A stretch of DNA of 25,062 bases from a virus: IMG/VR virus record IMGVR_UViG_3300050821_009262, positions 1 through 25,062 of that record; one strand, written 5' to 3'. This document shows positions 3,825 through 23,209 of the stretch, one piece after another; the first letter of the stretch is position 1; the number at the start of each line of letters is the position of its first letter. A model generated the notes under the pieces. The model was not told where the DNA came from. It worked only from the letters and a program-made list of their open reading frames with translations, and did not search any database. Position numbers and translations under genes: made by a program.

Positions 3825-4118
3825 TCATTTCCTTGGACCGTAGCGCTGCCGGACACCGGCAACGCAGTTTCGACCGTTCTCGATTTCGTTGCGTGCGGTG
3901 ACGAGCACCGCCTCATCGCGAACGAAAGCGACGCGGGCATCCGTGGTGGACTTTACTTTCGGGAAGTTCACCGGCGCGAGTATCTGCTCGCACACGCGAA
4001 GAGCTGCGAGGTTCACCGCCAGCGGCGGTGTGCCGAATAGCTGATTAGGAGATGAGGCGCAGCCGCAGAGCGGGAGCCCCAATAGGACAAGCCGGAGCAC
4101 TCTTGATAGATCGTGCAT
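3825..4118 (-). CDS. Rz1-like outer-membrane spanin lipoprotein (o-spanin), 97 aa
   Basis: I choose the ATG at 4118, which gives a type II signal: a basic start (MHDLSRVLR), a hydrophobic core and a lipobox ending Leu-Cys-Gly-Cys near residue 23. The mature lipoprotein would be anchored in the outer membrane. Its start lies inside the 3' end of the Rz-like gene (4045-4482) in another frame, the classic overlapping Rz/Rz1 arrangement. Spanin pairs fuse inner and outer membranes at the end of lysis. It is longer than lambda Rz1 and less Pro-rich. Confidence 0.7.
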   Translation of the reverse strand: MHDLSRVLRLVLLGLPLCGCASSPNQLFGTPPLAVNLAALRVCEQILAPVNFPKVKSTTDARVAFVRDEAVLVTARNEIENGRNCVAGVRQRYGPRK

Positions 4119-4482
4119 AATTTTGGACCTGTTGCCGGAGGTTGATGATTGTCCGGTCGCGCGCGGCAATGACAGGGCCATACTTCGCCTCAGCCGCCTT
4201 CGCGGCGTCGGTGTCTCGTGCTTCAGCCTCTTTGGCAATTTTGGCATTCGCCGCTACCCACACTGCCCTCTCATCGACGCGACCGACGTGGTTTTCATAG
4301 AGACCAGACGCGTACGCGACGCTGACGAGCACGGCGGCCCTTATGGCGAATGCGCGCGCCGTGGGATCGAGGTAGGCCAAGACCGCCAGCGCGACAAGTA
4401 CGCCGACCGAAATGCCGGTCAGCTCACTGATATGGGCGATCTCGCGCCAGATATCGCCGAGACCGGAGAGCATCTCAAACAT
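4045..4482 (-). CDS. Rz-like inner-membrane spanin (i-spanin), 145 aa
   Basis: The N-terminal third holds two hydrophobic segments (about residues 22-39 and 45-61). Next comes a periplasmic Ala/Glu/Lys-rich coiled coil (about 70-130, with AKIAKEAEARDTDAAKAAEA) and a short tail. This fits an i-spanin, although lambda Rz has only one N-terminal helix. The ATG at 4482 overlaps the endolysin stop by 8 nt. The 3' end overlaps the Rz1-like gene by 74 nt. Role: partner of the o-spanin in disrupting the outer membrane. Confidence 0.7.
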   Translation of the reverse strand: MFEMLSGLGDIWREIAHISELTGISVGVLVALAVLAYLDPTARAFAIRAAVLVSVAYASGLYENHVGRVDERAVWVAANAKIAKEAEARDTDAAKAAEAKYGPVIAARDRTIINLRQQVQNYARSIKSAPACPIGAPALRLRLIS

Positions 4483-6033: not shown

Positions 6034-9000
6034 TTATTGGTTCAGGCCCAACGCATGCCCCAGATCCATGAGTGGCTTCTCCGGGTGCCGGGGCGCCCCT
6101 TCCCACGGGTGCTTGCTTTCGATCTTTCGCTCGCGCGCGATCGCCTGATTAGCCTTGTCGTAATCGGTGCCGTAGAAGACGCGGCCGACCGGAATGTCGG
6201 AGGGGACGATCGGCTGGCCTTGGCCCACGGTGCTGAAGACCTTGGCGGCGTTCTCGATCGTGCGCACCTGACCGCCGAAGTATTCCTTCATGATGTAGGC
6301 GATGTCCTCGGGGTAGAAGTCGAGGTAACCCGAATGCGTGCGGTTACCGCCGCTGACATTGTTGAGGAACTTCGCGATATCCTTCCACGCCGACGGCGTC
6401 CATTTGAAGCCGGACTCGGCGTTCGGTCCTTTCTGCATATCGGTCGTCGTGTGGATATGGCCGCCGGTCCACGATTTGTTGAGGCCGATATCCATGAGCG
6501 GCTTGATCTGCTCCGGCGCGATGTCGCGCCAGGCGACGCCAGTTTCGCCGATCGGCGAAATAGCTGAGATCAACGATTTTATCGCCTGGGCCGCATAGGT
6601 GGCGGCCTTCTCGGTTCCGAAGATCATGCCCGCCGCGGCGTAGCCGAGCGTGAGCGGAAAAGCATAATTGAAGGGGAACGGAAACTGGATCGGTTGCGGA
6701 CGGCCTTTCTCGTCCGACAGGCCGATGAAGAGAGCGAGCTGCTTCGTCTTCGTCCACTCCGGCAACTTATCGAAGAACGCGATTTTGTCTTTGTCCTGGC
6801 CGCCGAACGCATAGTTCCAGGCGGCTGCACCGAACCCCATCGCCATCGTATAGAAGAAGACCTTGCGCATGATACGCGATCGGCTTTGCGCTGCGCCCAT
6901 CCGGTAGCCGGTCTGGGTGGCGACGTTCTGGAACGGCTCCCACAGGGCCAAGTAATTCGACAAAACGCCGCGCAGGTTATAATCGACGGTCGCCTCACGG
7001 GCGGTCATGCTTGCCTGCTGGATCGACTTGCCGGCTTGGCGCGCTTGGACAAAGGCAGAAAGGCGCGTCGAATTGTCGATGATGCTGGTCCACATATCGA
7101 CGGTTTCGCTGATCGCGCGGGCGAGTTCGCGGGGATCGTATTCGCTACGGCCGATCGATGCTGCCTTCTTGCGCAGCCGGTCGAGCATCTGATCGTATTC
7201 GCGCATCGAGAACATCGACATTGCGCCGCCGCCCTCTTTCATCTGCTTCCAGTAGTCACCGAGCGGTCCGCCGTCGCGGCCGTGCTCAACATTCCAGATC
7301 GCGCGCGTCGCGTTGCCGATGAAGGGGAAGGCATCGGTCATGTACTGTAGCGCGCTGAAATTGCCGTGCTCCTTCTGCTCGTAGGCGTTGAGCAGCCCCT
7401 CGACGAAATAGCGCGCCGCGTGCCGGGCCATGAATTCCGGGTTATAGTGGGTGAGCAGGCTCTTCCATTTGCCGAGAATGTGGTTGGCGATCTGGATGAT
7501 GGCGTTGGTTTTCGGCGACCACATCTTGACCGCGCGCGCCAGGCGTAGATCGTCGAACACTACGTACTGGTCCCGGCCGCGCACCTTCATGTGCACGGCG
7601 TTCTCCCGGCGCTGGTCGTAGCTATCGTCCGTCCATTTCACGAGGCCGGTGGAGCGGTCGATCATCCGCTTCGGGCGGCCGCGGTCGATGGTGATGCCCA
7701 GTTCCTTGCGCACCTCGGCGCCGGCGGCATTGAGCATGCGGGCGAGGCCATGGAGGGCGAGGTTCTTCTCGGCCCGGTCGATGGTGCGGAGCGCCTGATC
7801 GACGAGCGCCACGACGGGGTTGTCGGCCTTGCTGCGGCGGCCTAGCGCGCGCTGGGTCTCCGGCCCCTTGATATCGCCGCCATAGCCTTTCGGCCGTTGC
7901 TCGGCGAATTGCGGGGCGTTGGTGGGGTCTTCCCAGCCGCGCAGGGGCACATAGTTCGGGCTCGAACGCCACCACTCGGAGATGGTCTCCTGGCTCTCGA
8001 GGCCGCCGCGGATCATCTCGCTGCTGATGAAGCGCCGGATCTCGCCGACGCGCTGCGCGAGCTCGCGGAAGGCGTCCCCCTTCGGACCATGTTCGAGATC
8101 GAATGCGATCCGTCTGGCGTCGTTGGTCGACATGCCCGAGGCGCCGACGACGTCGTGGTCGGACACAGCCCGGTAGAAATCGCTGCCCGGCTGGTGCAGC
8201 CGGCCGACATTGTCGTTCCGCTCCGGCGCGTGCTTGGCGTAGACGTAATCACCCGCCTCCTGCGAGCCGATATGGCCGATGCGCATCGTGTCGGCGAGCG
8301 GCCGGAAATACTCCGTCATGAAGGTCTGCATGCGGCTCGCGCGCTTGCCGGGGAACAACCGCTTAAGCTGGTAGAATTGCTGGTCGTCGGGCAGCGGCGA
8401 TTCGCGATCCCTGGCGACCCAGTCGTTCGAGCGCGCCTCGACGGCATTCTGCATGCGCTCGACGCGCGCGTTCCAATCCTGGAAGTGCTCCTTGGTCCAG
8501 AGCATGCCTTCGGAGCCGATCAGGTCGGCGATCTTGCGGCGGATGCTCCAGGAGGCCGGGTGCAGCGGGTCGTCGAAGGCCGGGCGCGCCATGGCCGCCT
8601 GCGGGCCTTCCTCCGCGTGCTCGATGCGTGCCGCGACCTCGGTGCGCGCCTGCTCCGCGCGGATCTGGTCGGCCATCCGCGAGGGGGCGCCCTCGGCCTT
8701 GCGGCTCGGCCGGGCGGCGAGATCGCCGGCGGCGGCTTGCTCGAAGACGTCGTGGTAGCTGTTGAAGCCAAGGCCGCGCAGGTAATTGGCGATCTGCTGG
8801 AAGAGACGCCGCAACCGCTCGAATAGCGCCCGGATGCCGATGTGCAGGCCAGCGCCATAGCCGCCGCCCTCGCGGTCTTTCATGAAGGCGGTAAACGCCT
8901 CGGCGCGGATCTCGTAATCCGCCATCTTATCGACCAGCTTGCGGACCTGCGCGTCGGTGGCGCTGGGCGCTTCCTGCTTCATGCTGGCGATCGCCATCTC

Positions 9001-12000
9001 GCGAAGGCGCGGCTCTTGCGCCTTGAGAAGACGCATCTCGGCGTCGGTGACGAAATGGTCTTCGATGGCGTGCCAGGACTCGTGATAGGCGGCGTCAAGC
9101 GGATTGATCGAAGGGTGATTGAGCGCGAGCCGGATGATGTCGTGCATCGGCAGGTACGCGCCGCCGACCTCTTCCTTGCGCGCGTGTCCCCAGCCGATCG
9201 GCTTCATCGCGTAGCGGCCGCGGATGTCGACGGCGACCTGCCTGCCGGTGAGGTGCTGCACTATGGCGGTCAGGCGCCGCGCAAGGTCCTCGCGCAGCGG
9301 CGCCGCCTTCGGCGTCAAGGCGGCGGCGAGCGCCGGCCGCGCCATCGGGGCAAGAAGGTCGCCCTCGGGTTCGGCCTCTTGCGGCTCCGCAGCGCCGCCG
9401 CGGCGCCCTTCGGCCTCTTTCGTCCGGCGGTCCAGCTCGGCGACGATGGCGGCAAGGCGCTCGCGCATCGTCTTGAGCTCGCCGGCGAGCGGAAAGCCTT
9501 CGCCACGCTGCGCCTTCAGGCTCGGCAGCGTCCGCTTCGCCTCGTCGATCCGCTGCTGCATCCACGCGCCGGTCGAGCGCGCGTTGCCCATGATATCTTC
9601 GCTCAGTTTTTCGAGCGCGGCCTGGATACGGTTTGGACTGATTGAACGCTCGGTTCGGCCGCTGATAGCGGCGAGCGTACGACCACCCTTGGTAACGGCG
9701 AGCACGATATCGGCGAAGCTCGTGCTCTCGCCCTGCACAGTAGCGCTTACGTCCGTATCGAACATGCGCCCCAGCGGGACCACCTTGGTCTCGTTGTTTT
9801 TTACGCTGTCGAGCGCGGGCTTCACCTTCTCGGCGATGGCCTTGCCGGCACTCCAGCGGCGCCGGAAAGTCTCTCCGCCCATCGTCATCTCAAATGGCAC
9901 GCGGGTGTCGCCGAAGGCGTTGCGGATGGCCTCCTCGATCGCGGTCTTGTTGGTCAGCGCCGCGCCCTCGATGTTGACGGTGTAGGGCGCGTTCTCGTCG
10001 CCGCCCTTTTGCGTGGCAATCGCGTCTGCCGCTGCTTTCTCCGCACTGAAGTCATCAAAGTGCTTTTTGCCCTCGATAGTGATGGAGCGCGAGCGGACAG
10101 CGTCGAGCAAGGGGTCAACGAGCTCGGAGCGCACCTCGGCGGCGTTGAGCTTTTCCTCTTCGATCTTTGCCGGATAATCCCTGATCGCCCGCTCGGCGCT
10201 GGTGATTGCGTCCTCGATGCCGAACATCTTGCGCCGGTAGGCGCGCTCCTGCATCTCGATCTTCTCGATCTCGCCGCCGAGCTTGACGCGCTCGAGGAGG
10301 AGCGGGTCGCCAGAGGCAAGCGCGGCGATCTCGGCCATGCTCACCGAGTCGTCGTCCTCGAATTCCATATTGAAGGCACCGTTATACTTGCGGATGCCGT
10401 TGACCATCTTGAGCTTCTGGGAATTGAGGTCCCACATCTTCGCGTCGACCGTGCGCTCGGTCGCATAGGCGAGGATTTCCAAGGCGAACTTGTCGCCGTA
10501 TTTCTCAAGGAGCCGGTTGCCCTGGCGGATGCCGCGGCCTTCGCGCTGCTCGATGTCCGACGGCTTCCAGGTCACATCGCCGTGGTGCAGCCCGACGATG
10601 CGCTCCTGCACGTTAGTGCCGGCACCCATGCGCGCGGTCGAACCGATGAGCACACGGATTAGGCCGTCGTTGACGGCGTCGAATATCGCTTTCTTCTCGG
10701 CGTCGCTGCTGGCCTCCTGGATGAACCGGACTTCGTCTGCCGGGATGCCGCGCGCGATCAGGTTTTTTTTCAGTTGGTCGTAGGCGTTCCACCCGCCCTT
10801 CTGCGCTTGGCGCAGTTCCTCCATTTCGGCAGGGTGGTACTTTTCGAGGTGATCGGTGATCTCGCGGTAGGTGGCTTCGTCTCCGGCCGTGAGTGCCGCA
10901 TCGCGCTTGGCGACCAGGCCGTCGTATTCCTTCAGGATGCGGTCGTCGCCCTTGGACTTGGGCACACTGCGATCGAGGAAGACGAGCTGCGTTCCCTTGT
11001 CCTTGCCCCACGCCTTATGCAGGCGCGCGACGTTGTCGGCGATGACGTCGACCTTGCCACCCTTCTCGTTGCCCGGATAGACGGTATGGGTATTGATCGC
11101 CCGCACATCGAGCGAGAGCTTGCGCGCCTTGTCCATGAGGCGCAGTCGGGTCGCGTTGCGCTCATCCGGGTCTTTGATGTTGGGAAGATCGTTGAACGCC
11201 GCGACGATCTCCTCGAGCATCGTCTGCTGCGCGCGCGTCGGCTTGACAATGATCTCCTGGCGGCCGCCGCCCTTGACCTCCGGCACCGGGAACCGCGCGC
11301 CGCCGTTATCTTCTGCGTACCAACGGTTGATGTCGTCCTGCGAAACGGCGTCCGTGAAGGAGTAATAGAGCTCCATCAGCGCGCGCATGTTCGACCAGGA
11401 CCGGCCGAGCCGCGTGACTTCCTTGAGGCCTCCGGCTTCGGTCGGTTCCCATTTCGGCTCCGCCGAGACCGACTGCGCGCGCCAGGCGTCGAAATGCTCA
11501 AGCCCGAGATCGTGCAGATCCCGCGCCGCGAGATAGCGCATCATCGTGTACATCTCGACGGCGCTATTCGAGATCGGCGTTCCGGTCATGAAGGTGACGG
11601 TGCCGGTCGGGCTTTCCCGCAGCACGCGCACCTTGTTGTAGAGATCGAACGCCTTGCGCGAGCCATGCTTGTCGCCCATTCCCCGGACGCCCTGCAGGCG
11701 CGAGGAATAGAAGAGGTTCTTGAACTCGTGGGCCTCGTCGACGGTGAGATCGTCCACACCCATCTGCTCGAACGTCAGCATGTTGTCGCGGTTCTTCGAC
11801 CGCAGCGAATCCATGCGGGTTTCGATGGTGGTGACCAGCCTTTCAGCCTCCTTGACCGTGAAAGGCTTGCGGCCGCCGCCGATGCCAGATGCCTCGGCCT
11901 CTTCCTGGGCCTCTCTCACGGCGTCTTGCGCGACGCGCAGTTCCTCATCGAGGAAGCGCAGCTCGGTGTCGGGCGAGATGCCGATAAAACCGAACGACGA

Positions 12001-15000
12001 GTGCGGAACGATAACGAGGTCCCAGTCGCCGGTCGCGATCTTGGCAAACAGGCGCCGGCGGTTCTGCTTATCGAATTGGTTCTTGCCGGCCGCGAGCACC
12101 TTGGCGCCGGGATAGAGCCGATAGGTGTCGGCCGCCCACTGATCGACGAGATGGTTAGGGACCGTGACCATGGGCTTGCGCGAAAGGCCCATGCGGCGGC
12201 GCTCCATCGCGCGCGCGATCGCCGTGAAGGTCTTGCCCGCCCCGACGACGTGGTCGAGCAGCATGAAGCGCTCGTAGATGCCGCGCCAGATCGCGTTCTT
12301 CTGGTGCCGGCGCATCTTGATGACTTCATCCGGCACCTTGCCGGGAAGCGTCAGATGCGAGCCGTCATGCTGCCGCGTGACGCGGGTGTTGAACTTGTCG
12401 TTATAGATATCGACAAGTTGATTGCGCCGGTCCGTATCGGCAAACACCCAATCAGCGAAATCGTTCTGTATCTCCTTCGCCTTTATCACCACGAGTGCCG
12501 AGGCTTCCTTGTCCTCGTAGCGGTTTTTCTTGGCGTCCTCGCGGATGACTTTCGGGATACGGGAATTGAGCATGCCGCGCAGGATGGCGTCGGCCGGCAT
12601 GTCGTCCGTGCCCCACTGGGCCTGCTTGTCCTGCCCGTAATCCCCGACCAGGAGGTTGAAGCTGTTCGTCGCCTTCGAGTAATTGACGCGGCCCTTGGCG
12701 CCGAGAAGATGCTCGGCGTAATCCTCGTAGATCTTCGGCGGTATCCAGTTGGCCCCCGGCAGCGCGGTGACCTGCTCGGCGGTCCACCTTTCCGGCTGGA
12801 CGGCTTCCAGCTCGGTGATGTTCTTTTCGAGACCGGCAGTGATGGCAGCGGCGAGCTTTCGCCTTACCTGGCCTGACAGGTAGTCGTTGCGCGGTTCCCA
12901 CTCGTTCGTCTCGGGATTGAAAAAGGCGAGTGGCTTGTCGCCCTCGCCGAGCTTCGCCGCGGCTTCTTCCTCGGAGACGCCAAGAAGAGTGGCGACACGC
13001 GGCAGGTCGATCTTGCCTCTCTCGGAGAGTGAGATTGAGAGAGCGTCGGCCGGGCTCTTCGCCGAGGTGGGTGCCTCGTATTTCGGGATGACCCGCCGTG
13101 AAAGAATGGCCGCCGGCGTCGCTGTCGCCGCGCGCGGCTTGTCCCCGGTGCGCGCTGCCTTGGCCGGCGTGATCGGCGGCCGGTATCCGCTTTCGAGTGC
13201 CGCCAGCAGCGCGCCGTCCGGCATCTCATTGACGAGCGCGGCATTGCGGGGTTCGTTGAGCAGCCCGTTCTTGCCGGTATAGCTCTTGTAGGCGGTCGCA
13301 AGGAGACGCCGGTTTGCCTCCATGCGCTTTGCGTCGGCGTCCTCGGTCTCGAGCACGATTTGCTTTTTCGTCAGGTCTCTCAAGCGTGCGAGGTCTGAAA
13401 GGCGTTCGAACTTTGCCTGCCCAAGCCGCATGCCCGCCGGCACGTCATTGTTCGGAAAGTATTTGCGCTCGTAGACGTTCCGCTTGCCCTGCTTGAGCTT
13501 CTCGCCCTTCTCGTTGACCGCCGGTTCGAGCGTGTACCATTTGCCCTCGCGGTCCATGAGAAGCTGTCGCGACCACGGCGACTCGGGCGTGAGCGCGCGC
13601 CGTGTTGCCTCGAAACCGCCAGACGGCGTCTCCTTCTCGGCGATCTGGGTGAGCTGGCCCTTGTCGTCGAACTCGATGTGCCCGGTCTCATGCCCGGCGA
13701 GTGCGATCTTGAGCGCGTCCGACATGGATTTGTGGCGCTCGATCGACGCTTTGGCGATGTCGGGCGAGAGATTGATCGCGTCCTTCGGTAGCGTGCCGAT
13801 GGCCTTGTCAAGCAACGCGCCGAGATCTGCGTTCTTGTCGAGCGTGACATTGACGCCTTTGCCCTCTTCGCCGGCCCGCTGCATCGTCCCGGAGCGTTCG
13901 AGACGCCCCATGACCATCTTCGGATTGCTGGCGAAGTAGGAGTTGACGCTCATCGGTTCGCCGCCGAGAGGGTCTTTCACCTCGTCGGTGTCGATCCACG
14001 GCGCCATCCGCAGGAGCGTTTCCCTCGCGGCTTGGCGCGCCTCGTCTGCCGCTTTGCCCTTCCCGGGCTGCCGCATGTCGGCGATCAGGTTCTCGATGGC
14101 CTTCTCATCTTCCGCGGTCCGGCGCCGCATGAAGACGATGTCCGTCACCACCTCGGTGCGCGCGTTCTCTTTGAAGGCGGTATCGGGAAGGCGGATGGCG
14201 CCGAGCAGGTCCGCCTTTACCGCCATCTTCTCGCGCGCGCTACTATCGCGCGCATCAAGGAGGTATCGCGAGACGACTGCGGCATGCAGGCCGCCCGGCT
14301 GCAGCGCGTCGAGCGCCGCCAGGAAGAACTGATTGTGGATCGAAAGACCGGCGAGCGCCGGCTTGTATTGGAAGCGAAGCGACTCCGAGCCGAACGGCGG
14401 ATTGCCGATCGAGAGCACGAATTCGCCGTCGGGCATTGGCACGCGCTGGAAGCCCGAATGCAGGACAGTCTCCTGCGGATATAACAATTTTGCGATGCGC
14501 GCCGTCAGACTGTCGAACTCGACGCCGATAAACTTGGTATGCGCGGCGAGATGATCCGGCACCAGACCGAGGAAATTGCCCGGCCCCATCGAGGACTCGA
14601 GCGTAAGACCACCCTTGAAGCCCAGGTGCTCGACCGCCTTCCACATGGCGTCGATAACCGGCTTCGACGTGTAATGCGCATTGAGCGTGGTGCGGCGCGC
14701 CGCGCGCAGCTCGTCCTTGGTCAGAAGGCTCTCGAGATTGTTGCCGCGCTCGGCCCAGTCCGGCTTGAATTCGTCGGTCTGCGGCGAGCGGAAGGCATTG
14801 GCGAGACCGCCCCAGCCGACATAACGCGCGAGGATGCGCTGCTCGTCCGGCGTTGCCCGGCGCTCGTCGCGCTCGATGTTCTTGAGCGCCGCGATCGCCG
14901 TGAGGTTGTCGTTGAATTTTTGGGTTTCGCCGCCTTTGCCGAGACCGAGATCTTCCCTGATCCGGAAGTTCTGCTCGGGGACGTTCGGCTCTATCCGACT

Positions 15001-18000
15001 TGCACTGGCGGGGCCTTCAGATAGTCCTGATCCATCTGGTGCAGCTCGGCCCTCTGCTCCTCGTCGAGCCCGTCCACTTCGGGCGGCAGCAGCACGTAGT
15101 CCTTCAGCGCCTTTTCTCTCGCCTCGTGCTCCTGGTACCCGTTCGCCTTGAGGTGATCGATTTCCCTTTGCGCCAGGTTCGCCGCGCCCTCGAGATCCTC
15201 GTTCAGCGTTCCGTTCGCCTGCGCCTCCCGATACTTCTGCGGGAGCCACTTCTGCCAGTGGTCGTTCGCCAGCGCTTTGAGTTCCTGCACGCTCATCGGG
15301 TGCCTCTTCCTTAAATTTATCACCCGGGCGCTCGCCGGCAAGGTCTTCGCGGGTGATTTTCCCGGCTTTGACCTCTTCGATGAATTTCTGCACGTAGGGC
15401 TGGACGCCTTCCAGCATCTCGCGGGACCAGCCATAGGCGTCCTTGAGCTCGCCAATCATCCGGTCCATCAGCTCGTAGATGTCGTCAAGGAAGGCCGAGA
15501 AGCGGCTGGCCGCCTTGATGAAATGCGGCTTTGCCTGCTGATAGGTCTCCGGGTCGAAGGCCGGCCCGGCGCCGACGGTCTTGCCGCCGCCGAAGAGCTT
15601 GGTGAGGGCCTGCATCGCCTCTTCGGCCGAGCCGCCCAGGTTCTCCGCGGCGCTCTTGGCGACCTTCCTCGCGGTGCGGCGGCGCGGTGATTCGGTGGCC
15701 TTGGCGGTCTCTTCGGCGGATTGCTCGGCGGCGTCCTCGCTCGCGATTGCCGCGGCGCGATCGTCCTCGCGCGGTCCGAATGCCTTGTCGAGCGATTGCT
15801 TGAACCGGCGCTGGAATTCCTCGTCTACAGGAAGCTCAGTTGCAGAGGGGGGGGGAGCCCCGGTCGGGGCTGTCGTCCACTCTTCGCGTTGTGCTTCAAG
15901 CTGCTTCGAGGCGGCCTCGGGTAGCCATTCGGTCGACTTCTCCTCCTGGATCACGCGCGCTCGCGCTTCGCGCTTCATCGCAGTCACGGCTTCCGGATCG
16001 AAGAAGCTCTCTAGCTCGGACGCGGTGTCCTGGAAAGCGCGAGCCGCCTCCTGGATGTCACGCGTGAGTTGTTTGATGTATTTCTCGGGCGGCGTACGGC
16101 CCGGCGGTTTCGTTTTTCCGGACTTAATTTCGGCCCGCAATCTGCCGGCGCGACGCATGACGGCTTGGTCGTTGACCATGCTGTTGATGGTCTCGTCGAG
16201 CATGCCCGCGACTTGCGATGCGTCGTAGCTCCCGTCCTCGTTCGCCTCGCCGAAGATCGGGCCACGCTGCTCTTCGTAGGCCGCCAGCTTCTTCTCGTTC
16301 GGCGCTGGGAATGTATCGTTGAAATCCCACGGGCCTTTGTCGGTGAGCTTCACCGTCATCGGCTCGCCGGTATCGGCGGCTTCTATCTCGCCTTCGCGTT
16401 TTACTTTCGGTGTTTCCGGCGCGCGCGCCTGTTCGACGAGGTCGGTTTGCTTGTGCTCGTCGCCGAACAGCCCTTCGTCGGCCGGCTTCTGATTGACCTT
16501 CGGCTTTAGGCGCTCGTCGGCTCGTCGCTGGGCGAGTTCGGCGTCGGAGATGCGTTCTGCGCCAGGGAGGACGTGCTGTTGGCCGGCTGCGGTGCGCTCG
16601 GTGCTGGGTTGTCGTTCGCGCTCGGCTGAGGGCTGCTCTCCTCCGGCAGCGGTCCCGCGTTCCGCGCTTCCGCTGCGTTCGCCAGCTTGAGACCGAGCCT
16701 CGCCGCCTTCTGATATTGCGGGCGCCTCGCCGGCACTCTTCTCGCCAGCTTGCGGAAGCTGTGCGCCGCCGCCATGAGCCGTTTCGTTCTTGGTCTCACT
16801 GACTGCCTCTTGTCGTTCGGTGGCCGCTTCCGATTCTTCAGCCTCGAACACGACCGCGTCATGCTCTGCCTTGAGGAATGCAGCGTCAATAGCATCGATC
16901 GGTTCGTGGCCGTGGTCGATCATCCGGCCGATGGCATCGTTCCAGATCTCGTCGGGAACCTCGTCGCGGCCGATTTTCGCCTGCTTGAGCGCTTTCTTCA
17001 GCTTCTTCTCGTGCTCGGCGACGAGTTTTGCCCGTTCTTCGTTCGCCTCGGTGACGGTGCGCCCGTGGCGCGCGGCTTCCTCGGCGCGGTGCGATTTGAA
17101 TGTGGTGACGGTGCCTTCCTGCCCCGATTCGCGGCGTTTTTTGGCCGCCGCCCGATACTCTTCGGCGTTCTCGACCATGCCCGCGAAGGGCGCGCCGCCG
17201 GTTACACGGGGGGCATTTTCGGCATGTTCACGTTGAGCGGCGTTGCCGGCTTCCACGGCGTTGCCTTGGCCAGATTGCTCGGCTGCAGCTTCGGCAGCGC
17301 GCTCCCCGCCGGCGGGCTCGCGAACGGGATGCTCTCCTGCTTCGCCACCGGCGGCTTCGCCGTTGTCATGCTCGGCACCTTCGGTGCCTTCAGTTTTGGG
17401 GCCTTCGGCGGCTTCGCCAGCCCGCTGGTGAGGTTCTTGTGGGCGAGCCGCGCCGCCGCCACGAAGCTGTTCGCCCGCTGGCGCGGCAGTCTCCCCACGA
17501 GCTGCGGCGCTTGATGCCGCAGGAGGTACGACGAGTGCAGGTGCTCCTGCGGGTTCCAATAGAGCGTGGATTTCTTCACCGTACTGCTCCTTGACCTGCT
17601 CCGGCGTCATTAGGCCGTCCTCGACGGCGGCGCGCACGACGGCGAGTTGGAAGGCGTCGGCTGGCGGCAGGCCCTCGTTGGCGTGGATCTCGGCGGCGCG
17701 CGCGATATCGACCGGTCGCACCTGGTGCGGATCGACGCCCACCTCCTTGAGCGCGGCTTCGACGGCGGCGTGGTCACGGGGTGACGTCTCCGGCCCGCTT
17801 GAAACGACAGAACCCCCCTGGGCGGCAGAGGGGTTTTGTCGTTCCTCCGGGGTAAGATCGGCCTCCCGGGCACCCGTCTTAGGGTTGTTCGCCCCCTCTT
17901 CGGCCGGCTTTACATCCGGCTTTACACTATACATGGCATCGGAGAGCGGCTGGCTCAGGTCGCCCTTGGCCCAGTCCTTGAACTCCGGAACCGACATCGC

Positions 18001-20166
18001 GCGCATGCCGCCGACACCGGTTTCTTCCTTCCCCTGCGCGCCGGTGTAGGCCTTGAGCGCTTCCATCGGGCTCTGGAACCCGATGAACGCCTTGTGCTGG
18101 CGGAATGCTCCGGTCTTCGGATCGCGCTCGTCGATGACGTAGACCGTCGGCGCGCCGGGATTGGCGCCGAAGAAGGCGTCGAGGTGATCGCCATCGGCCC
18201 CTTTTGTTCCCTTGATGTACCCGTACGCAGCGCTGAAGCGTTGCTCCCAGGGCATACCCTCGGCAGAAACGCCGCGCCTGATGCCGCCGGCCGGCGCTTC
18301 GAAGGTGACGCCGAGACCCTGCCACGTCGCATGGCCGCGCTCGGCATTGTTCGCTTCGCCCTGCGCGTGCGTGTGGTCCTGGCTCGCCTGCCGGGATGCG
18401 CGCTCGACGTCGGCGCCGGTTTTGATGTCGATCGGCGCGCCGCGGCTTCCCGGCGCCGGCGGCTCTTCGGTCGATGGCGTGCCGTTGCGCAGCGCCTCGT
18501 CGACGTTTGCCGCCTTCTCCTCTGGCGACATTCCCTTGATGTCTTCGTCGGTGTGGCCCTGGCGGCGCAGGATCTCGTCGTCGTCGGCGCGGTGCGAGCC
18601 ATACCCGAACTTACGGTTGACGTAATCTTTCAGCTCGTCGTCGGACCAAGACCGGATGGTGTCGCGGTCGTGCTCCTTGTAATAGGCGGCGGCGTCCTCG
18701 AGCTGCAGACGCACGCTCGGCTTGAGCTTCGTCTCGAACGGCTGCGGCTTTTCCTTCGGCGCGCTCTGTTGCGCTCCCGCACCTCCAGCGCCGGCGCTCG
18801 CGTTCGGGCCTGTGCTTTGCCACGGGTTGGGATCGTCCTTGCGATCGTAACCGGGATTGTCTTGCTGGTATTTGCCGTAGTCGAAGGAGCCGTTCTCCTG
18901 CCAGTATTTTGGATTATTGGCGTCGGTGAACCCTTGCTGGGCGCCGGCGCTTCCCGGCGGTAGACCTGGCTGCGGCTCTGGTTCGGCGTCGCCCCTGTTA
19001 CGGAGATCGTCCTCCGTATCGATTTTCAGTTCTGGTTTTGCCGCCTGGTGCTTTTCGAGCGCGGCGTGCAACGTGCCCAACGCGCCGCCGGCGAGCAGTT
19101 CCGAGATCAGGCGCTCCGTATTGAACGAATAGCCCGCTTTCGGGTCGTACATCTTGGCGATTTGCTGGCCGATATATTCCTGCGCCTCGCCGACGCTCGC
19201 GAAGACGACGCCGTTCTGCGCCGCCTCCGAAAGGATGCGCATGCCGAGGCCGGCGCCTTCGGGCAGGAGCTTCTTGAAGGGCGCAAGTACGCTCGCGATT
19301 GGCAGCGTGCCGAGCGCAGCATTCGCTGCACCGGACAGCATCGCGGCTTCGCGCGCGGTATCCTCGCTCGCGCCCTTCTCGATCGCCGCGTCGTACGTGT
19401 CGCCGGCGCTCGAAAAGCCGAACATGGCGGCGCCGCCGGCGATGCCGGCTGCCGGATCGACCATGCCGAGCGCGAGCGGCGCGGCGACGCCACCGAGGAT
19501 CTGTCCGGTCTTGCTGTAAATCGGATGCGCGGCGCGCTCGGCCTCGCTAACCGGGATATTCTCCTCGGCCCATTTCTCGGTCGCCTGCCCGGCCCGGTAG
19601 AGCGAGCTTTCCTTGGCTGAGGGCTGCTTGCCGACGGGCACATTCTCGGGGACGTTGATATCGGCTTCGCCGGGCGGGCTCGGCTGCGCCTGTGCGGTTG
19701 CGGCGACGCCGAGGCCTTTGAGCGTGCTGCCGACGCCTTTGACCGCGGACTGCGCCGCCTCGCGTGCGGCAACGCTGGGGCCGCTGCCAATGTCGTTGAC
19801 AGGCACCTCGCCCGCGGCGACCGCTTCATTTTCCGGCGTGCCGAATTGCGAGAAGTCCGGCGATTGCACCTTGTCTTTGGTGGTGCCGAACGCGCTGAAA
19901 TCCGGCTGGCCTTCGGGCGTTTTCGCCGCGCGCTCCGCCATTTTGTCTTGCTGCCGACGGATCAGCCGGTTGAGCACCGCCTGCGGATCGACGTTGCCGT
20001 TGTCGGCAAGGTCCGGCGCGCGCTGCCGGATGAGATCATTGAGCACGCCCTGCGGCTCGATCGGTCCCGTTGAGAGACCGAGTGTGGTGCCGCCGGTGTT
20101 GCCAGCACTATTTGTCTCCGCGTCGTCCGGAGGCGACGCGGGGAGATCAGGCCAATTTGCTGGCAT
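6034..20166 (-). CDS. Giant polyvalent protein, 4710 aa (InPase-like, N6-methyltransferase, SF2 helicase, HExxH zincin, LPD38-like)
   Basis: One uninterrupted frame. The order of parts is as follows. N-terminal short repeats (PDFSAFG and PDFSQFG near residues 90-110). Hydrophobic Gly/Ala-rich segments (about 220-340). An InPase-like domain (about 612-745). Helical linkers. A region preceding the methyltransferase with helices ending near residue 1600. A DarB-like N6-adenine methyltransferase (YVGWGG at 1782, NPPF at 1922-1925). An SF2/SNF2-like helicase (about 2600-3230). Coiled coils. A zincin (HESWH 3695-3699). A long LPD38-like C-terminus (about 3870-4700). Such proteins are known as polyvalent proteins of phages and conjugative elements, delivered with the DNA to defeat host defences. 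It lies between virion and lysis genes, which supports packaging in the virion. Three stretches (about residues 863-988, 1122-1220, 1623-1725) have poor GC3 and Ala/Gly/Glu/Arg composition; each hosts a nested gene in the +1 frame. Confidence 0.9.
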   Translation of the reverse strand: MPANWPDLPASPPDDAETNSAGNTGGTTLGLSTGPIEPQGVLNDLIRQRAPDLADNGNVDPQAVLNRLIRRQQDKMAERAAKTPEGQPDFSAFGTTKDKVQSPDFSQFGTPENEAVAAGEVPVNDIGSGPSVAAREAAQSAVKGVGSTLKGLGVAATAQAQPSPPGEADINVPENVPVGKQPSAKESSLYRAGQATEKWAEENIPVSEAERAAHPIYSKTGQILGGVAAPLALGMVDPAAGIAGGAAMFGFSSAGDTYDAAIEKGASEDTAREAAMLSGAANAALGTLPIASVLAPFKKLLPEGAGLGMRILSEAAQNGVVFASVGEAQEYIGQQIAKMYDPKAGYSFNTERLISELLAGGALGTLHAALEKHQAAKPELKIDTEDDLRNRGDAEPEPQPGLPPGSAGAQQGFTDANNPKYWQENGSFDYGKYQQDNPGYDRKDDPNPWQSTGPNASAGAGGAGAQQSAPKEKPQPFETKLKPSVRLQLEDAAAYYKEHDRDTIRSWSDDELKDYVNRKFGYGSHRADDDEILRRQGHTDEDIKGMSPEEKAANVDEALRNGTPSTEEPPAPGSRGAPIDIKTGADVERASRQASQDHTHAQGEANNAERGHATWQGLGVTFEAPAGGIRRGVSAEGMPWEQRFSAAYGYIKGTKGADGDHLDAFFGANPGAPTVYVIDERDPKTGAFRQHKAFIGFQSPMEALKAYTGAQGKEETGVGGMRAMSVPEFKDWAKGDLSQPLSDAMYSVKPDVKPAEEGANNPKTGAREADLTPEERQNPSAAQGGSVVSSGPETSPRDHAAVEAALKEVGVDPHQVRPVDIARAAEIHANEGLPPADAFQLAVVRAAVEDGLMTPEQVKEQYGEEIHALLEPAGAPALVVPPAASSAAARGETAAPAGEQLRGGGAARPQEPHQRAGEAAEGPKTEGTEGAEHDNGEAAGGEAGEHPVREPAGGERAAEAAAEQSGQGNAVEAGNAAQREHAENAPRVTGGAPFAGMVENAEEYRAAAKKRRESGQEGTVTTFKSHRAEEAARHGRTVTEANEERAKLVAEHEKKLKKALKQAKIGRDEVPDEIWNDAIGRMIDHGHEPIDAIDAAFLKAEHDAVVFEAEESEAATERQEAVSETKNETAHGGGAQLPQAGEKSAGEAPAISEGGEARSQAGERSGSAERGTAAGGEQPSAERERQPSTERTAAGQQHVLPGAERISDAELAQRRADERLKPKVNQKPADEGLFGDEHKQTDLVEQARAPETPKVKREGEIEAADTGEPMTVKLTDKGPWDFNDTFPAPNEKKLAAYEEQRGPIFGEANEDGSYDASQVAGMLDETINSMVNDQAVMRRAGRLRAEIKSGKTKPPGRTPPEKYIKQLTRDIQEAARAFQDTASELESFFDPEAVTAMKREARARVIQEEKSTEWLPEAASKQLEAQREEWTTAPTGAPPPSATELPVDEEFQRRFKQSLDKAFGPREDDRAAAIASEDAAEQSAEETAKATESPRRRTARKVAKSAAENLGGSAEEAMQALTKLFGGGKTVGAGPAFDPETYQQAKPHFIKAASRFSAFLDDIYELMDRMIGELKDAYGWSREMLEGVQPYVQKFIEEVKAGKITREDLAGERPGDKFKEEAPDERAGTQSAGERPLAEVAPAEVSGGAGERNAERGSRGRGEPGAKGNRSPQGERVPGARGERKGAEGLRAAAARSGRARRGAEGRAAPDGSGLSEGPASASRIEPNVPEQNFRIREDLGLGKGGETQKFNDNLTAIAALKNIERDERRATPDEQRILARYVGWGGLANAFRSPQTDEFKPDWAERGNNLESLLTKDELRAARRTTLNAHYTSKPVIDAMWKAVEHLGFKGGLTLESSMGPGNFLGLVPDHLAAHTKFIGVEFDSLTARIAKLLYPQETVLHSGFQRVPMPDGEFVLSIGNPPFGSESLRFQYKPALAGLSIHNQFFLAALDALQPGGLHAAVVSRYLLDARDSSAREKMAVKADLLGAIRLPDTAFKENARTEVVTDIVFMRRRTAEDEKAIENLIADMRQPGKGKAADEARQAARETLLRMAPWIDTDEVKDPLGGEPMSVNSYFASNPKMVMGRLERSGTMQRAGEEGKGVNVTLDKNADLGALLDKAIGTLPKDAINLSPDIAKASIERHKSMSDALKIALAGHETGHIEFDDKGQLTQIAEKETPSGGFEATRRALTPESPWSRQLLMDREGKWYTLEPAVNEKGEKLKQGKRNVYERKYFPNNDVPAGMRLGQAKFERLSDLARLRDLTKKQIVLETEDADAKRMEANRRLLATAYKSYTGKNGLLNEPRNAALVNEMPDGALLAALESGYRPPITPAKAARTGDKPRAATATPAAILSRRVIPKYEAPTSAKSPADALSISLSERGKIDLPRVATLLGVSEEEAAAKLGEGDKPLAFFNPETNEWEPRNDYLSGQVRRKLAAAITAGLEKNITELEAVQPERWTAEQVTALPGANWIPPKIYEDYAEHLLGAKGRVNYSKATNSFNLLVGDYGQDKQAQWGTDDMPADAILRGMLNSRIPKVIREDAKKNRYEDKEASALVVIKAKEIQNDFADWVFADTDRRNQLVDIYNDKFNTRVTRQHDGSHLTLPGKVPDEVIKMRRHQKNAIWRGIYERFMLLDHVVGAGKTFTAIARAMERRRMGLSRKPMVTVPNHLVDQWAADTYRLYPGAKVLAAGKNQFDKQNRRRLFAKIATGDWDLVIVPHSSFGFIGISPDTELRFLDEELRVAQDAVREAQEEAEASGIGGGRKPFTVKEAERLVTTIETRMDSLRSKNRDNMLTFEQMGVDDLTVDEAHEFKNLFYSSRLQGVRGMGDKHGSRKAFDLYNKVRVLRESPTGTVTFMTGTPISNSAVEMYTMMRYLAARDLHDLGLEHFDAWRAQSVSAEPKWEPTEAGGLKEVTRLGRSWSNMRALMELYYSFTDAVSQDDINRWYAEDNGGARFPVPEVKGGGRQEIIVKPTRAQQTMLEEIVAAFNDLPNIKDPDERNATRLRLMDKARKLSLDVRAINTHTVYPGNEKGGKVDVIADNVARLHKAWGKDKGTQLVFLDRSVPKSKGDDRILKEYDGLVAKRDAALTAGDEATYREITDHLEKYHPAEMEELRQAQKGGWNAYDQLKKNLIARGIPADEVRFIQEASSDAEKKAIFDAVNDGLIRVLIGSTARMGAGTNVQERIVGLHHGDVTWKPSDIEQREGRGIRQGNRLLEKYGDKFALEILAYATERTVDAKMWDLNSQKLKMVNGIRKYNGAFNMEFEDDDSVSMAEIAALASGDPLLLERVKLGGEIEKIEMQERAYRRKMFGIEDAITSAERAIRDYPAKIEEEKLNAAEVRSELVDPLLDAVRSRSITIEGKKHFDDFSAEKAAADAIATQKGGDENAPYTVNIEGAALTNKTAIEEAIRNAFGDTRVPFEMTMGGETFRRRWSAGKAIAEKVKPALDSVKNNETKVVPLGRMFDTDVSATVQGESTSFADIVLAVTKGGRTLAAISGRTERSISPNRIQAALEKLSEDIMGNARSTGAWMQQRIDEAKRTLPSLKAQRGEGFPLAGELKTMRERLAAIVAELDRRTKEAEGRRGGAAEPQEAEPEGDLLAPMARPALAAALTPKAAPLREDLARRLTAIVQHLTGRQVAVDIRGRYAMKPIGWGHARKEEVGGAYLPMHDIIRLALNHPSINPLDAAYHESWHAIEDHFVTDAEMRLLKAQEPRLREMAIASMKQEAPSATDAQVRKLVDKMADYEIRAEAFTAFMKDREGGGYGAGLHIGIRALFERLRRLFQQIANYLRGLGFNSYHDVFEQAAAGDLAARPSRKAEGAPSRMADQIRAEQARTEVAARIEHAEEGPQAAMARPAFDDPLHPASWSIRRKIADLIGSEGMLWTKEHFQDWNARVERMQNAVEARSNDWVARDRESPLPDDQQFYQLKRLFPGKRASRMQTFMTEYFRPLADTMRIGHIGSQEAGDYVYAKHAPERNDNVGRLHQPGSDFYRAVSDHDVVGASGMSTNDARRIAFDLEHGPKGDAFRELAQRVGEIRRFISSEMIRGGLESQETISEWWRSSPNYVPLRGWEDPTNAPQFAEQRPKGYGGDIKGPETQRALGRRSKADNPVVALVDQALRTIDRAEKNLALHGLARMLNAAGAEVRKELGITIDRGRPKRMIDRSTGLVKWTDDSYDQRRENAVHMKVRGRDQYVVFDDLRLARAVKMWSPKTNAIIQIANHILGKWKSLLTHYNPEFMARHAARYFVEGLLNAYEQKEHGNFSALQYMTDAFPFIGNATRAIWNVEHGRDGGPLGDYWKQMKEGGGAMSMFSMREYDQMLDRLRKKAASIGRSEYDPRELARAISETVDMWTSIIDNSTRLSAFVQARQAGKSIQQASMTAREATVDYNLRGVLSNYLALWEPFQNVATQTGYRMGAAQSRSRIMRKVFFYTMAMGFGAAAWNYAFGGQDKDKIAFFDKLPEWTKTKQLALFIGLSDEKGRPQPIQFPFPFNYAFPLTLGYAAAGMIFGTEKAATYAAQAIKSLISAISPIGETGVAWRDIAPEQIKPLMDIGLNKSWTGGHIHTTTDMQKGPNAESGFKWTPSAWKDIAKFLNNVSGGNRTHSGYLDFYPEDIAYIMKEYFGGQVRTIENAAKVFSTVGQGQPIVPSDIPVGRVFYGTDYDKANQAIARERKIESKHPWEGAPRHPEKPLMDLGHALGLNQ
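8750..9270 (-). other. Zincin metallopeptidase domain (HExxH) of the giant protein
   Basis: About residues 3630-3805. The HESWH at 3695-3699 (in DAAYHESWHAIED) is an HExxH zinc-binding motif with Glu3696 as the general base. A downstream glutamate in EIRAEAFTAF could be the third ligand. The preceding segment (HDIIRLALNHPSINPLD) resembles domains that precede such zincins in other polyvalent proteins. Possible roles are self-processing of the giant chain or cleavage of a host target; the sequence does not decide. Confidence 0.65.
10480..12360 (-). other. SF2/SNF2-like helicase domain of the giant protein
   Basis: About residues 2603-3229. All the main ATPase motifs are present: Walker A VGAGKT (G2642-T2646), motif Ia (VTVPNHLVDQW), Walker B DEAH (2810-2813), motif III (TFMTGTPISNS), motif V (GSTARMGAGTN) and motif VI (QREGRGIRQGN, from 3207). 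An RHQKNAIWR Q-like motif precedes Walker A. With the methyltransferase upstream this matches the methylase-helicase pairing of DarB-type antirestriction proteins. It appears catalytically intact. Confidence 0.85.
13980..14990 (-). other. N6-adenine DNA methyltransferase domain (DarB-like) of the giant protein
   Basis: About residues 1725-2062. It begins with the conserved lead-in (ARYVGWGG at about 1780) typical of polyvalent DarB-like proteins. It then has a SAM-binding loop (LESSMGPGNFLG near 1856), an acidic strand end (GVEFD) and the catalytic IGNPPFG (NPPF 1922-1925), which places the target adenine. It probably methylates incoming phage DNA to protect it from restriction. No start codon with a ribosome site lies just upstream, so this part must be translated as a continuation of the giant frame. 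Confidence 0.8.
14991..15296 (-). CDS. Nested out-of-frame gene 3 inside the giant ORF: 101-aa soluble protein
   Basis: An ATG at 15296 lies 6 nt after AAGAGG (complement of 15308-15303), and TAG closes the frame at 14991. It is in the +1 frame relative to the giant ORF. The product looks like a genuine helical protein: MSVQELKALANDHWQKWL, then NLAQREIDHL, then DYVLLPPEVDGL and an acidic end. By hand count over 15181-15240, 16 of 19 codons of this frame end in G or C, against 8 of 20 for the giant frame. The giant frame here gives only Arg/Gly/Ala/Glu-rich sequence. No family is named with certainty, though the LLPPE ending resembles small conserved proteins of alphaproteobacterial elements. 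It is better supported as coding than the overlapping giant segment. Confidence 0.75.
   Translation of the reverse strand: MSVQELKALANDHWQKWLPQKYREAQANGTLNEDLEGAANLAQREIDHLKANGYQEHEAREKALKDYVLLPPEVDGLDEEQRAELHQMDQDYLKAPPVQVG
16506..16799 (-). CDS. Nested out-of-frame gene 2 inside the giant ORF: 97-aa Pro/Asn-rich protein
   Basis: A GTG at 16799 lies exactly 6 nt after AAGAGG (complement of 16811-16806); an alternative ATG is at 16775. TAA ends it at 16506. It uses the same +1 frame as the other two nested genes. The N-terminal half is basic and helical (HSFRKLARRVPARRPQYQ, then LGLKLANAAEARN). The C-terminal half is Ser/Pro/Asn-rich and probably disordered. GC-ending codons clearly dominate in this frame from about the ATG onward, while the giant frame shows the same Ala/Gly/Glu/Arg linker as at the other sites. 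Function unknown. It is less certain than genes 1 and 3 because the tail is of low complexity. Confidence 0.6.
   Translation of the reverse strand: MRPRTKRLMAAAHSFRKLARRVPARRPQYQKAARLGLKLANAAEARNAGPLPEESSPQPSANDNPAPSAPQPANSTSSLAQNASPTPNSPSDEPTSA
17202..17579 (-). CDS. Nested out-of-frame gene 1 inside the giant ORF: 125-aa Pro/Lys-rich protein
   Basis: A GTG at 17579 lies 7 nt after AAGGAG (complement of 17592-17587), and TAA is at 17202. It is in the +1 frame relative to the giant ORF. The N-terminal 50 residues look globular (KKSTLYWNPQEHLHSSYLL, then ANSFVAAARLAHKNL). The rest is a Pro/Lys/Ala-rich tail with PKAPKLKAPKVP-type repeats ending Met-Pro-Pro-Val. By hand count over 17521-17580, 17 of 19 codons end in G/C here against 6 of 20 in the giant frame; over 17281-17340 the figures are about 20 of 20 against 12 of 20. 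The giant frame has about 90% GC3 just upstream (17641-17700) and recovers right after the nested stop. The function is not recognised. Confidence 0.72.
   Translation of the reverse strand: MKKSTLYWNPQEHLHSSYLLRHQAPQLVGRLPRQRANSFVAAARLAHKNLTSGLAKPPKAPKLKAPKVPSMTTAKPPVAKQESIPFASPPAGSALPKLQPSNLAKATPWKPATPLNVNMPKMPPV
17940..18333 (-). other. InPase-like domain of the giant protein
   Basis: About residues 612-745 of the giant protein. The segment reads ERGHATWQGL, then YGYIKGTKGADGDHLDAFFG (DGDH at 658-661), then VYVIDERDPKTG and later MSVPEFKDW. This succession is the hallmark of the inorganic-pyrophosphatase-like domain found in polyvalent proteins of mobile elements. The Asp and His residues of GADGDHLD are the likely metal ligands. 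Whether it hydrolyses pyrophosphate or acts on modified nucleotides is unknown. Confidence 0.7.
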
Positions 20167-21536: not shown

Positions 21537-22730
21537 TTACGCCGCAAGGCCAAAGCTGAGATTGTCGTCGTTCGCGGCGGCGAGATTGGTCGCGCGCCGG
21601 TAGTCGACGAGCTTCACGCCGTCGATCTCGGCGACTGCGTCCGGGTATTTCTTCTCGACGTCCTGCGCCATGAGACCGACGCGCAACGTGCCCGGATCGT
21701 CCCACGCGTAGCGGAAGCGATAGAGCGGCAGACCGTCCTTGGTCTTGCCGATCTTCTCCTTGTCGGTCTTCACCCGCTCGTCCGAGAGCATGAGCGCTGA
21801 CGCGAGGGCCGAGGTGCCCTGACCCTGGAAAAATCCGCCGAGCGCCGAGCCCGCGCCACCAAGCAACGAACCGAGAATGCCGAAGCCGGCATTGTTCGGC
21901 GCGGTGGTCGTGGTGGTCATATTCGTCGGCAGCGCCGCGCCCATCGTCGAGTTGAGGAGCTGCGTCGTCTGGAACGGATATTGCTGCGCCATGAGGTACT
22001 GATTGTACATGGCGTTCAATTGCGCCTGGCTCTGCGCCGTCTGTTGGCCGCCCAGCGTGTTGATGAGGTTGGTGGCGTTCGTGCCTTGCCCGAAGCCGGT
22101 ATTCACGCCGGCAAGCTCTTCCTGCAGCCCGACATTGCGATTGGCAGCATTCGTGGTCTGTGCCGTGAGCTGGTTCGCGGTGTCTTGTGCGCCGGCGCCG
22201 ATCGCGGTGTTGAACGCCGCGTTATAGGCGTTGCCGACGAGGCCCTGATTTTCGAGCGAGTAGTTGAGCCCGAGATTGGATTGCAGGAGACTGGCGCGCG
22301 GATCGCCGAAGGCTCCGGCCGAGGTCGCGGCGCCCTGCTGCGCCTGGCTCTGCTGCATGTACGTGTTGGCCGCCTGCGCCAATTGCGGCTGCAGGGCCAT
22401 GTTCACGTACTGGCTCATGTAAGGCGACATATTCGCCGAGATCGGCGTCGCGCTTACGGTCGGCTGGTTCGGCGCGTTTTGCAGATAGCTTTCGAGGCCG
22501 GTGCCGGCGAGCTGCACGCCGGGCGTGACGGCGCCGGCGATGCCGGTGCCGAGGCCAAACGACGCCTCCTGCTGCGGCGAGAAATCGGCGACCTGCTGGC
22601 CCGTGTACGGCGTGAAGCCGGTGGATTGCAGGTTCTGCGCAAAGTTGACGTTGTTTTGCGCAGCGTTCTGCAGCCACGAGGGCGCGGTCTGCGTTTGTGT
22701 CGAGGTGGTCGTGTTATTGCCGAAGCACAT
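21537..22730 (-). CDS. Virion protein with C-terminal Peptidase_S74-type chaperone domain, 397 aa
   Basis: I choose the ATG at 22730 (MCFGNNTTTST), with GAAGAG upstream; the frame extends back to 22928 only through the next gene. Residues 1-300 are rich in Gln, Asn, Ala and Thr, with repeated helices (QLAQAANTYMQQSQAQQGA). A Gly-rich hydrophobic stretch follows (GFGILGSLLGGAGSALGG). The C-terminal 80 residues match the intramolecular chaperone/auto-processing domain of phage tail spikes: LSDERVKTD (Ser316 and Lys321, the expected S/K dyad), YRFRYAW, GLMAQDVEKKYPDAV and VDYRRA. This domain helps trimer folding and then cleaves itself off before the Ser. The N-terminal part does not look like a spike, so it may be another virion component using the same domain. 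Confidence 0.75.
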   Translation of the reverse strand: MCFGNNTTTSTQTQTAPSWLQNAAQNNVNFAQNLQSTGFTPYTGQQVADFSPQQEASFGLGTGIAGAVTPGVQLAGTGLESYLQNAPNQPTVSATPISANMSPYMSQYVNMALQPQLAQAANTYMQQSQAQQGAATSAGAFGDPRASLLQSNLGLNYSLENQGLVGNAYNAAFNTAIGAGAQDTANQLTAQTTNAANRNVGLQEELAGVNTGFGQGTNATNLINTLGGQQTAQSQAQLNAMYNQYLMAQQYPFQTTQLLNSTMGAALPTNMTTTTTAPNNAGFGILGSLLGGAGSALGGFFQGQGTSALASALMLSDERVKTDKEKIGKTKDGLPLYRFRYAWDDPGTLRVGLMAQDVEKKYPDAVAEIDGVKLVDYRRATNLAAANDDNLSFGLAA

Positions 22731-22741
22731 GGCGGTACTCT

Positions 22742-23209
22742 TCAGTGGGCGGTGGCGCGCGCGCCGATTTGCTCCGCGACCGGGAATGGCGCGAAGTGCG
22801 GGTTCGGCTGTTCTCTGTTCGCGTGCTTGTTGAGGATGAGGATGCTGCCTCGTTCCTCGGAGATGATGTGGACTTCCATGTTGGAAGACACGCCGATCTG
22901 CCGCGCCTCGCGCAGCAATGGCTTCCACGCGCCGGCGCCGGGGATGGCGAAGGCCCAGCGGTTCACAAGGAATTTCACCTTGCTATTCCACCAGAAGGAG
23001 GGGCAGACGAGGCCGATCGTGCCGATCAGCTTGTCCTCGCGCATCGCCATGATGGCGACTTCCTGGTGCGCGACGCGCCACACTTCGGTGGCGCTATCCT
23101 TCGGGTCGATCTCGGCGGGCAAGCGCGGGCCGGCGACGATGCAAAGGAATGCGTGGATAGCTATGACGTCCGCGTCGCTCTCGGCGTAGCGGATCGTGAT
23201 CTCGCTCAT
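22742..23209 (-). CDS. GNAT-like N-acetyltransferase fold protein, 155 aa
   Basis: The start (ITIRYAESDADVIAIHAFL) is the typical first strand and helix of a GNAT acyltransferase. It is followed by a strand pair (EVAIMAMREDKLIGTIGLV) that resembles the core around the acetyl-CoA site. The Q/RxxGxG/A motif is not clearly present, so catalysis is uncertain. Small GNAT-like proteins between structural genes are frequent in podoviruses. The ATG at 23209 overlaps the upstream stop by 4 nt (ATGA), so translation is coupled. The next gene starts 11 nt after its stop. Confidence 0.6.
   Translation of the reverse strand: MSEITIRYAESDADVIAIHAFLCIVAGPRLPAEIDPKDSATEVWRVAHQEVAIMAMREDKLIGTIGLVCPSFWWNSKVKFLVNRWAFAIPGAGAWKPLLREARQIGVSSNMEVHIISEERGSILILNKHANREQPNPHFAPFPVAEQIGARATAH

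Follow-up and report, generated by a model that had tools for sequence, protein, structure and literature searches.

Within the IMG/VR virus record IMGVR_UViG_3300050821_009262, analysed here over its whole length of 25,062 bases (the window), three small candidate genes, designated N1, N2 and N3, lie out of frame inside one giant ORF (open reading frame) for a DarB-like polyvalent protein. Comparative evidence indicates that N3 is a real, conserved gene for a predicted helical protein, and that its nesting is general to a phage group and not special to the window genome. The elements concerned are as follows, with duplex energies denoting pairing with the anti-Shine-Dalgarno sequence (mean at random positions in giants, -2.6 kcal/mol).

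6034..20166, minus strand: ORF of the giant DarB-like polyvalent protein, 4710 amino acids, host of N1, N2 and N3
17202..17579, minus strand: N1, nested +1 gene, GTG start, 125 amino acids, with a homologue nested in +1 in the relative L073/L074
17587..17592, minus strand: Shine-Dalgarno (SD) site of N1, AAGGAG, -7.7 kcal/mol, 7 nucleotides to the GTG
16506..16799, minus strand: N2, nested +1 gene, GTG start, 97 amino acids, the weakest case (z 4.4)
16806..16811, minus strand: SD site of N2, AAGAGG, -5.8 kcal/mol, 6 nucleotides to the GTG
14991..15296, minus strand: N3, nested +1 gene, ATG start, predicted 101-amino-acid helical protein, conserved across the phage group
15303..15312, minus strand: SD site of N3, AAGGAAGAGG, -6.3 kcal/mol, 6 nucleotides to the ATG
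9406..14943, minus strand: DarB module of the giant (methylase plus SNF2-type helicase) by domain and profile matches, beginning directly after N3

Each nested gene is a complete start-to-stop ORF within another coding frame of the same strand. A previous sequence-only reading of this DNA had placed the three ORFs in one shared frame, one base after that of the giant, with start codons 6-7 nucleotides past AAGGAG- or AAGAGG-type sites, and all of these features were recovered. Its compositional observations also held: the GC content of third codon positions (GC3) is higher in the nested than in the giant frame (0.89 versus 0.51 for N1, 0.81 versus 0.64 for N2, the weakest contrast, and 0.84 versus 0.30 for N3), in 150-nucleotide windows the giant frame regains the advantage in the stretches that separate and follow the nested ORFs, and the giant frame is Ala/Gly/Glu/Arg-rich where they lie. 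It had correctly traced this composition to the wobble base of the nested frame, which becomes the first codon base of the giant frame.

Searching 50,697 phage records with N3 by tblastn returned matches exclusively in DarB-type giant genes, as did a repeat with a free-standing N3 relative. The match lies one base off the frame of the annotated giant coding sequence in Atu_ph08, LASTA, Pavtok, VvAW1 and Mwe-JY07; N3 is nested also in POI1126 and PEp14, and the match in USP_25 is weak. Scans of IMG/VR and GTDB genomes contributed a further 55 and 9 loci, respectively. The 72 loci, including the window, stem from phages of Agrobacterium, Klebsiella, Erwinia, Vibrio, Pseudomonas and Microcystis and from prophages, with 25-50% identity of N3 across phages. 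N3 is nested out of frame at 69 of them (a few cut by contig ends), always in +1 and directly upstream of the methylase-helicase module; in these 69 the giant frame contains no stops and the third frame 2-9. The remaining three copies, L068 (Corticibacter populi), L072 and L019, are free-standing, with two, seven and no giant-frame stops, respectively. The Corticibacter copy (L068 10001-10300) has its own SD site and nearby integrase and transglycosylase genes, and no DarB homologue was found in its neighbourhood. Beyond two seed genomes, searches of 385 and 301 genomes detected N3 in L089 only, in +1 inside an open frame of 1086 amino acids, and none was found in plasmids. None of the phage records inspected lists N3 as a separate gene. 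In the Itty13 record (L005, 3905-15163), three ORFs are annotated on the strand opposite to that carrying the intact giant frame.

Start sites are conserved along with the protein. N3 starts have a mean SD energy of -6.6 kcal/mol, compared with -2.4 for other +1 ATG or GTG codons (p about 1e-18), and energies of -5 or below occur at 94% of N3 starts versus 16% of the comparison codons. ATG is the start in 33 of 36 loci, with ATG or GTG at the identical alignment position. Ten of these 36 loci have an in-frame stop no more than 12 codons ahead of the start (merely 2 codons in three of them), and therefore internal initiation is favoured over frameshifting. Programmed ribosomal frameshifting out of the giant frame, which would yield a shortened giant ending in N3 without internal initiation, could draw on the PBC5 record (L002), in which the upstream part of the giant reads in frame into N3 and ends with it. 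However, comparison with relatives accounts for this arrangement by one small indel just upstream of N3 (upstream of 8001), and both start codon and SD site are kept in nearly all loci, which together with the upstream stops makes frameshifting very improbable. The same indel led us to reject the PBC5 arrangement as the ancestral state. It also bears on the only PHROG matched by N3, phrog_938 ('endolysin'), the profile length of which equals that of PBC5 orf33, where N3 is fused by the indel: the match is confined to a C-terminal stretch (2084-2158 of 2185), and phrog_938 appears to inherit N3 from this frame-disrupted gene. An endolysin identity for N3 was accordingly discarded, as no lytic domain was matched.

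Both frames bear the mark of selection, in different ways. In a non-redundant set of 37 N3 loci (<85% identity), resampling synonymous N3 codons according to the codon usage of the respective giant predicted 129 giant-frame stops and none was observed (log10 P -63.5, which, given the common history of the lineages, overstates significance). In N3, wobble T is rarer than elsewhere in the same giant. Between close pairs, differences inside N3 number 1197, 572 and 495 at giant codon positions 1, 2 and 3, with the peak at the nested wobble base, whereas in the flanks they number 2771/2374/4676 and 1319/1119/2894, with the peak at the giant wobble base. Among 505 N3 pairs below 60% identity, not one had a giant-frame match better than the nested-frame match. 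Because of these wobble-position differences and pairwise matches, the protein information at N3 is assigned to the nested frame, with the giant frame mainly kept just open; the comparison of 37 loci indicates that this openness goes beyond chance. The sequence-only reading had named a conserved linker over a decayed +1 frame as the pattern that would count against it. The opposite was found for N3: protein, start and ribosome-binding site are kept at 69 of the 72 loci and the linker is not.

Structure prediction also separates the two frames. AlphaFold2 run on 40 N3 sequences predicted five helices at a predicted local distance difference test (pLDDT) score of 86 (core, 92-96); for the same DNA translated in the giant frame (31 sequences), the score was 56.5 and secondary structure was absent. 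The predicted N3 fold had no match in the PDB; its best viral match was the fused copy of PBC5, and sequence similarities to designed helical proteins were set aside as generic helix matches. Profile comparison with TnpV (PF14198) gave E<0.01 for 16 of 40 family members (best 2e-4), a weak similarity that falls below a membership call, and no match at E<0.01 for the window's own N3. The other nested products matched no family in Pfam or PHROGs.

These data bear on the objection that the +1 ORFs are no genes at all but frames that high GC happens to leave open. Long spurious frames are known from high-GC genomes, and +1 and +2 ORFs longer than 100 amino acids are numerous in the window. In the window alone, the chance of a stop-free giant frame is 0.12 at N1, 0.07 at N2 and 0.04 at N3, and openness in one genome is weak evidence; N2 taken by itself is also weakly supported. 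Against such an artefact stand homology at 25-50% identity, the switch of the variable codon position, the SD enrichment and the folding contrast. Furthermore, a Helicobacter ganmani prophage of 39% GC (L096 5495-5899) carries a 134-amino-acid +1 ORF with a strong SD site (-8.7) that ends just before the DarB module, and therefore the arrangement is not purely a high-GC effect. The artefact is already contradicted for N3, and we regard it as scarcely credible overall.

The position of N3 within the giants suggests how the nesting arose. The free-standing DarB of phage P1 (2255 amino acids) can be aligned with the giants beginning shortly past N3: its residue 40 corresponds to residue 1697 in PEp14 (N3 end near 1672) and to residue 880 in VvAW1 (N3 end near 838), and its residue 87 pairs with residue 1827 of the window giant. 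By these alignments, N3 occupies the joint where the N-terminal modules meet a once-separate DarB. Ancestrally, an N-terminal gene, N3 and darB would have been neighbours; the two large genes would then have fused by reading through N3 in the sole other frame that could be kept stop-free, which turned the DNA of N3 into a linker. Since the fusion, selection would have preserved a folded N3 protein in one frame and a linker that is merely open in the other, and one mRNA would yield the giant as well as the small proteins, the latter by internal initiation at their own ribosome-binding sites and starts. The joint position, the predicted fold and the free-standing relatives are our reasons for proposing fusion through N3. 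The same three lines, together with the genome's codon bias, favour N3 as the older partner over which the linker was laid, not a new gene born in the linker. Fusion through an existing gene would be the reverse of the usual overprinting story.

What N3 does is approached here by analogy. In P1, DarB is packaged and believed to be ejected, and Ulx, encoded next to darB, 'aids DarB localization' and is among the small proteins helping DarB into the head (PMC9024508). DarB of phage JC1 was detected in virions (PMC9144972), and Bcep22-like phages yielded no DarA homologue (PMC10269572). Because JC1 DarB is found in virions and P1 DarB is packaged, the window giant is probably a virion protein. 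Because Ulx aids DarB and Bcep22-like phages have no detected DarA, a partner role is open for N3, and we tentatively propose that N3 may be a small co-translated partner that loads or restrains DarB. Made in step with DarB, it could act in the virion as an escort, a packaging helper or an inhibitor until ejection. The likeness to the P1 Dar system lies in the combination of DarB with an adjacently encoded small virion protein aiding its localization; the difference is that ulx stands as its own gene downstream of darB, with no sequence similarity to N3.

Taken as a whole, nested genes with internal initiation, fusion through N3 and N3 as a small DarB partner form the explanation that we consider probable: from nesting, conservation, starts, selection on both frames, fold prediction and joint position, all supported by sequence, we infer translation, the order of events and function. 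Several observations weigh against it. In the N3 tree the free-standing copies fall within the nested ones with their order unresolved, and they could be escapees instead of ancestors. P1 darB and the giant of a Bacteroides phage have no such gene at the place of N3, which means that a DarB module can exist without one. The PBC5 indel splits the giant frame and, if real, would make an unbroken giant non-essential. Finally, the partner role is drawn from position and analogy, and the N3 profile scored 0.1 bits against Ulx, with no sequence similarity.

Additional nested genes extend the phenomenon. The product of N1 has a conserved head, YWNP..HL..AY.LRHQAPQLVGRLPR, followed by a Pro/Lys-rich tail, and an ATG lies in frame upstream of the N2 start, at 16895. 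One close relative, L073/L074, was found in IMG/VR, its giant being 59% identical over the DarB part. N1 and N2 recur there, nested in +1: N1 at 7995-8354 (ATG, SD -7.3; 72% over 32 amino acids), N2 at 8919-9077 in L073 (GTG, SD -9.3; shorter than in the window) and, alongside them, N3 at 9933-10235 (SD -8.9). Alignment z scores between window and relative, nested versus giant frame, are 15.9/4.8 for N1, 4.4/1.4 for N2 and 32/4.0 for N3. The nested products thus appear to be kept by selection in their own frame, to a moderate degree only for N2; N1 is convincing as a gene and N2 probable. Two more scans added no other relative, a search with the N-terminal part of the giant found nothing, and N1 had no match in GenBank phages.

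When nested ORFs were screened for strong SD sites and high GC3, all candidates returned were +1, a frame that the GC3 rule itself partly favours; conserved clusters at random scattered positions in the first scan were rejected as low-complexity matches. In Rhizobiaceae phages, a second conserved nested +1 gene of about 60 amino acids (..DPPSPFDTLQ.WKDW..) lies about 6-6.6 kb past the N3 start, within the C-terminal portion of the DarB region; it occurs at L001 14589-14798, with counterparts in 26 further loci, and shows the wobble-position signature seen in N3. The Erwinia phages PEp14, Pavtok and Stean share a 76-amino-acid nested +1 gene (L081 7380-7610; L004 5529-5759) with an SD of -9.3 and 65-68% conservation. 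A +1 ORF with an SD site right before the DarB module, without a clear N3 match, occurs in BcepIL02, 8P, Y7, USP_25, a Dolichospermum phage and the Helicobacter prophage; that of BcepIL02 is conserved in BcepMigl, CSP3, DC1 and JC1. Comparison of N3 with the Lessievirus nested gene gave 46% probability, which is suggestive only.

This lineage-specific repertoire (N1 and N2 in the window group, the ~60-amino-acid Rhizobiaceae gene, the 76-amino-acid Erwinia gene), like the weak similarity of N3 to a mobile-element protein, TnpV, would fit a different history. In it, the small genes, though real and translated, would have been inserted into, or overprinted within, linkers after the gene had become giant, and would be unrelated in function to DarB (for example, anti-defence or mobile-element proteins). 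A linker-born gene would, however, be expected to be lineage-restricted and unfolded, whereas N3 sits where free-standing DarB starts, is predicted to fold and has free-standing relatives, and we judge this history unlikely. For N1 and N2, an origin by insertion or overprinting stays open. The sequence-only reading had offered insertion into linkers or maintained overprinting; the overprinted frames stand, and for N3 an older gene is favoured over an origin inside the linker.

The host itself is, by profile matches, a DarB-like polyvalent protein of Bcep22/PBC5-type podophages (phrog_10089, DarB-like antirestriction, E=0), combining the methylase-helicase core with other polyvalent domains in a single chain. 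Comparable giants were found in Bcep22-, PBC5-, Atu_ph08-, LASTA- and Pavtok-type podophages. As a member of the DarB-like giants of Bcep22-, PBC5- and Atu_ph08-type podophages (polyvalent proteins, Iyer et al. 2017, PMC5512222), the window protein shares with them the methylase-helicase dyad, other polyvalent domains and a late position beside ejection genes. Its further domains and neighbourhood include the following.

17965..18366, minus strand: InPase domain of the giant protein, 5' of N1 (PF18823, 9e-38)
6187..6774, minus strand: LPD38 domain in the C-terminal part of the giant protein (PF18857, 6e-27)
21537..22928, minus strand: DNA ejection or virion protein gene of an ejection-protein cluster, upstream of the giant gene (phrog_4287, 1.6e-23)

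An endolysin gene lies downstream of the giant gene, and past it two overlapping minus-strand ORFs in different frames (4045-4482 and 3825-4247), the second with a lipobox-like LLGLPLCGCASS, look like an Rz/Rz1 spanin pair.

Such embedded spanins, present in the same phage group (PMC9144972), also place a small gene wholly inside another in a different frame with its own start. They differ in being one functionally linked lysis pair with a host of about 150 amino acids, whereas the giants carry several small genes in the linkers of one protein of 3,500-5,400 amino acids, the overlapped part of which is apparently spacer only. In Rpn genes-within-genes (PMC10327210), internal initiation likewise gives rise to a small protein, an antitoxin, that partners the full-length one; this small protein, however, corresponds to the C-terminal domain of its host, and N3 is another protein in another frame. 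The sequence-only reading took a polyvalent host for internal genes to be undescribed, and within literature on polyvalent proteins, Atu_ph08, JC1, CSP3 and Parlo we found no earlier description: PMC5512222, PMC6630229, PMC9144972, PMC10269572 and PMC6606913 make no mention of a nested gene in the giant, the 2011 Bcep22/BcepIL02 paper lying outside this coverage.

A broader proposition, less likely than not, is that giants grew by fusion through small genes that were kept alive while their DNA became disordered linkers, with N3, the universal one among them, an overlooked DarB partner needed to load or restrain a giant ejected enzyme where DarA is not detected. A conserved phage gene family has been overlooked because annotation programs assign one frame per stretch of DNA. 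The start of N3 can be removed with the giant protein unchanged, which offers a clean test of N3. Several nested genes in one giant suggest a route to very large multidomain proteins without loss of the intervening small genes, and they provide specific candidates for the DarB partners that are missing in Bcep22-type phages.

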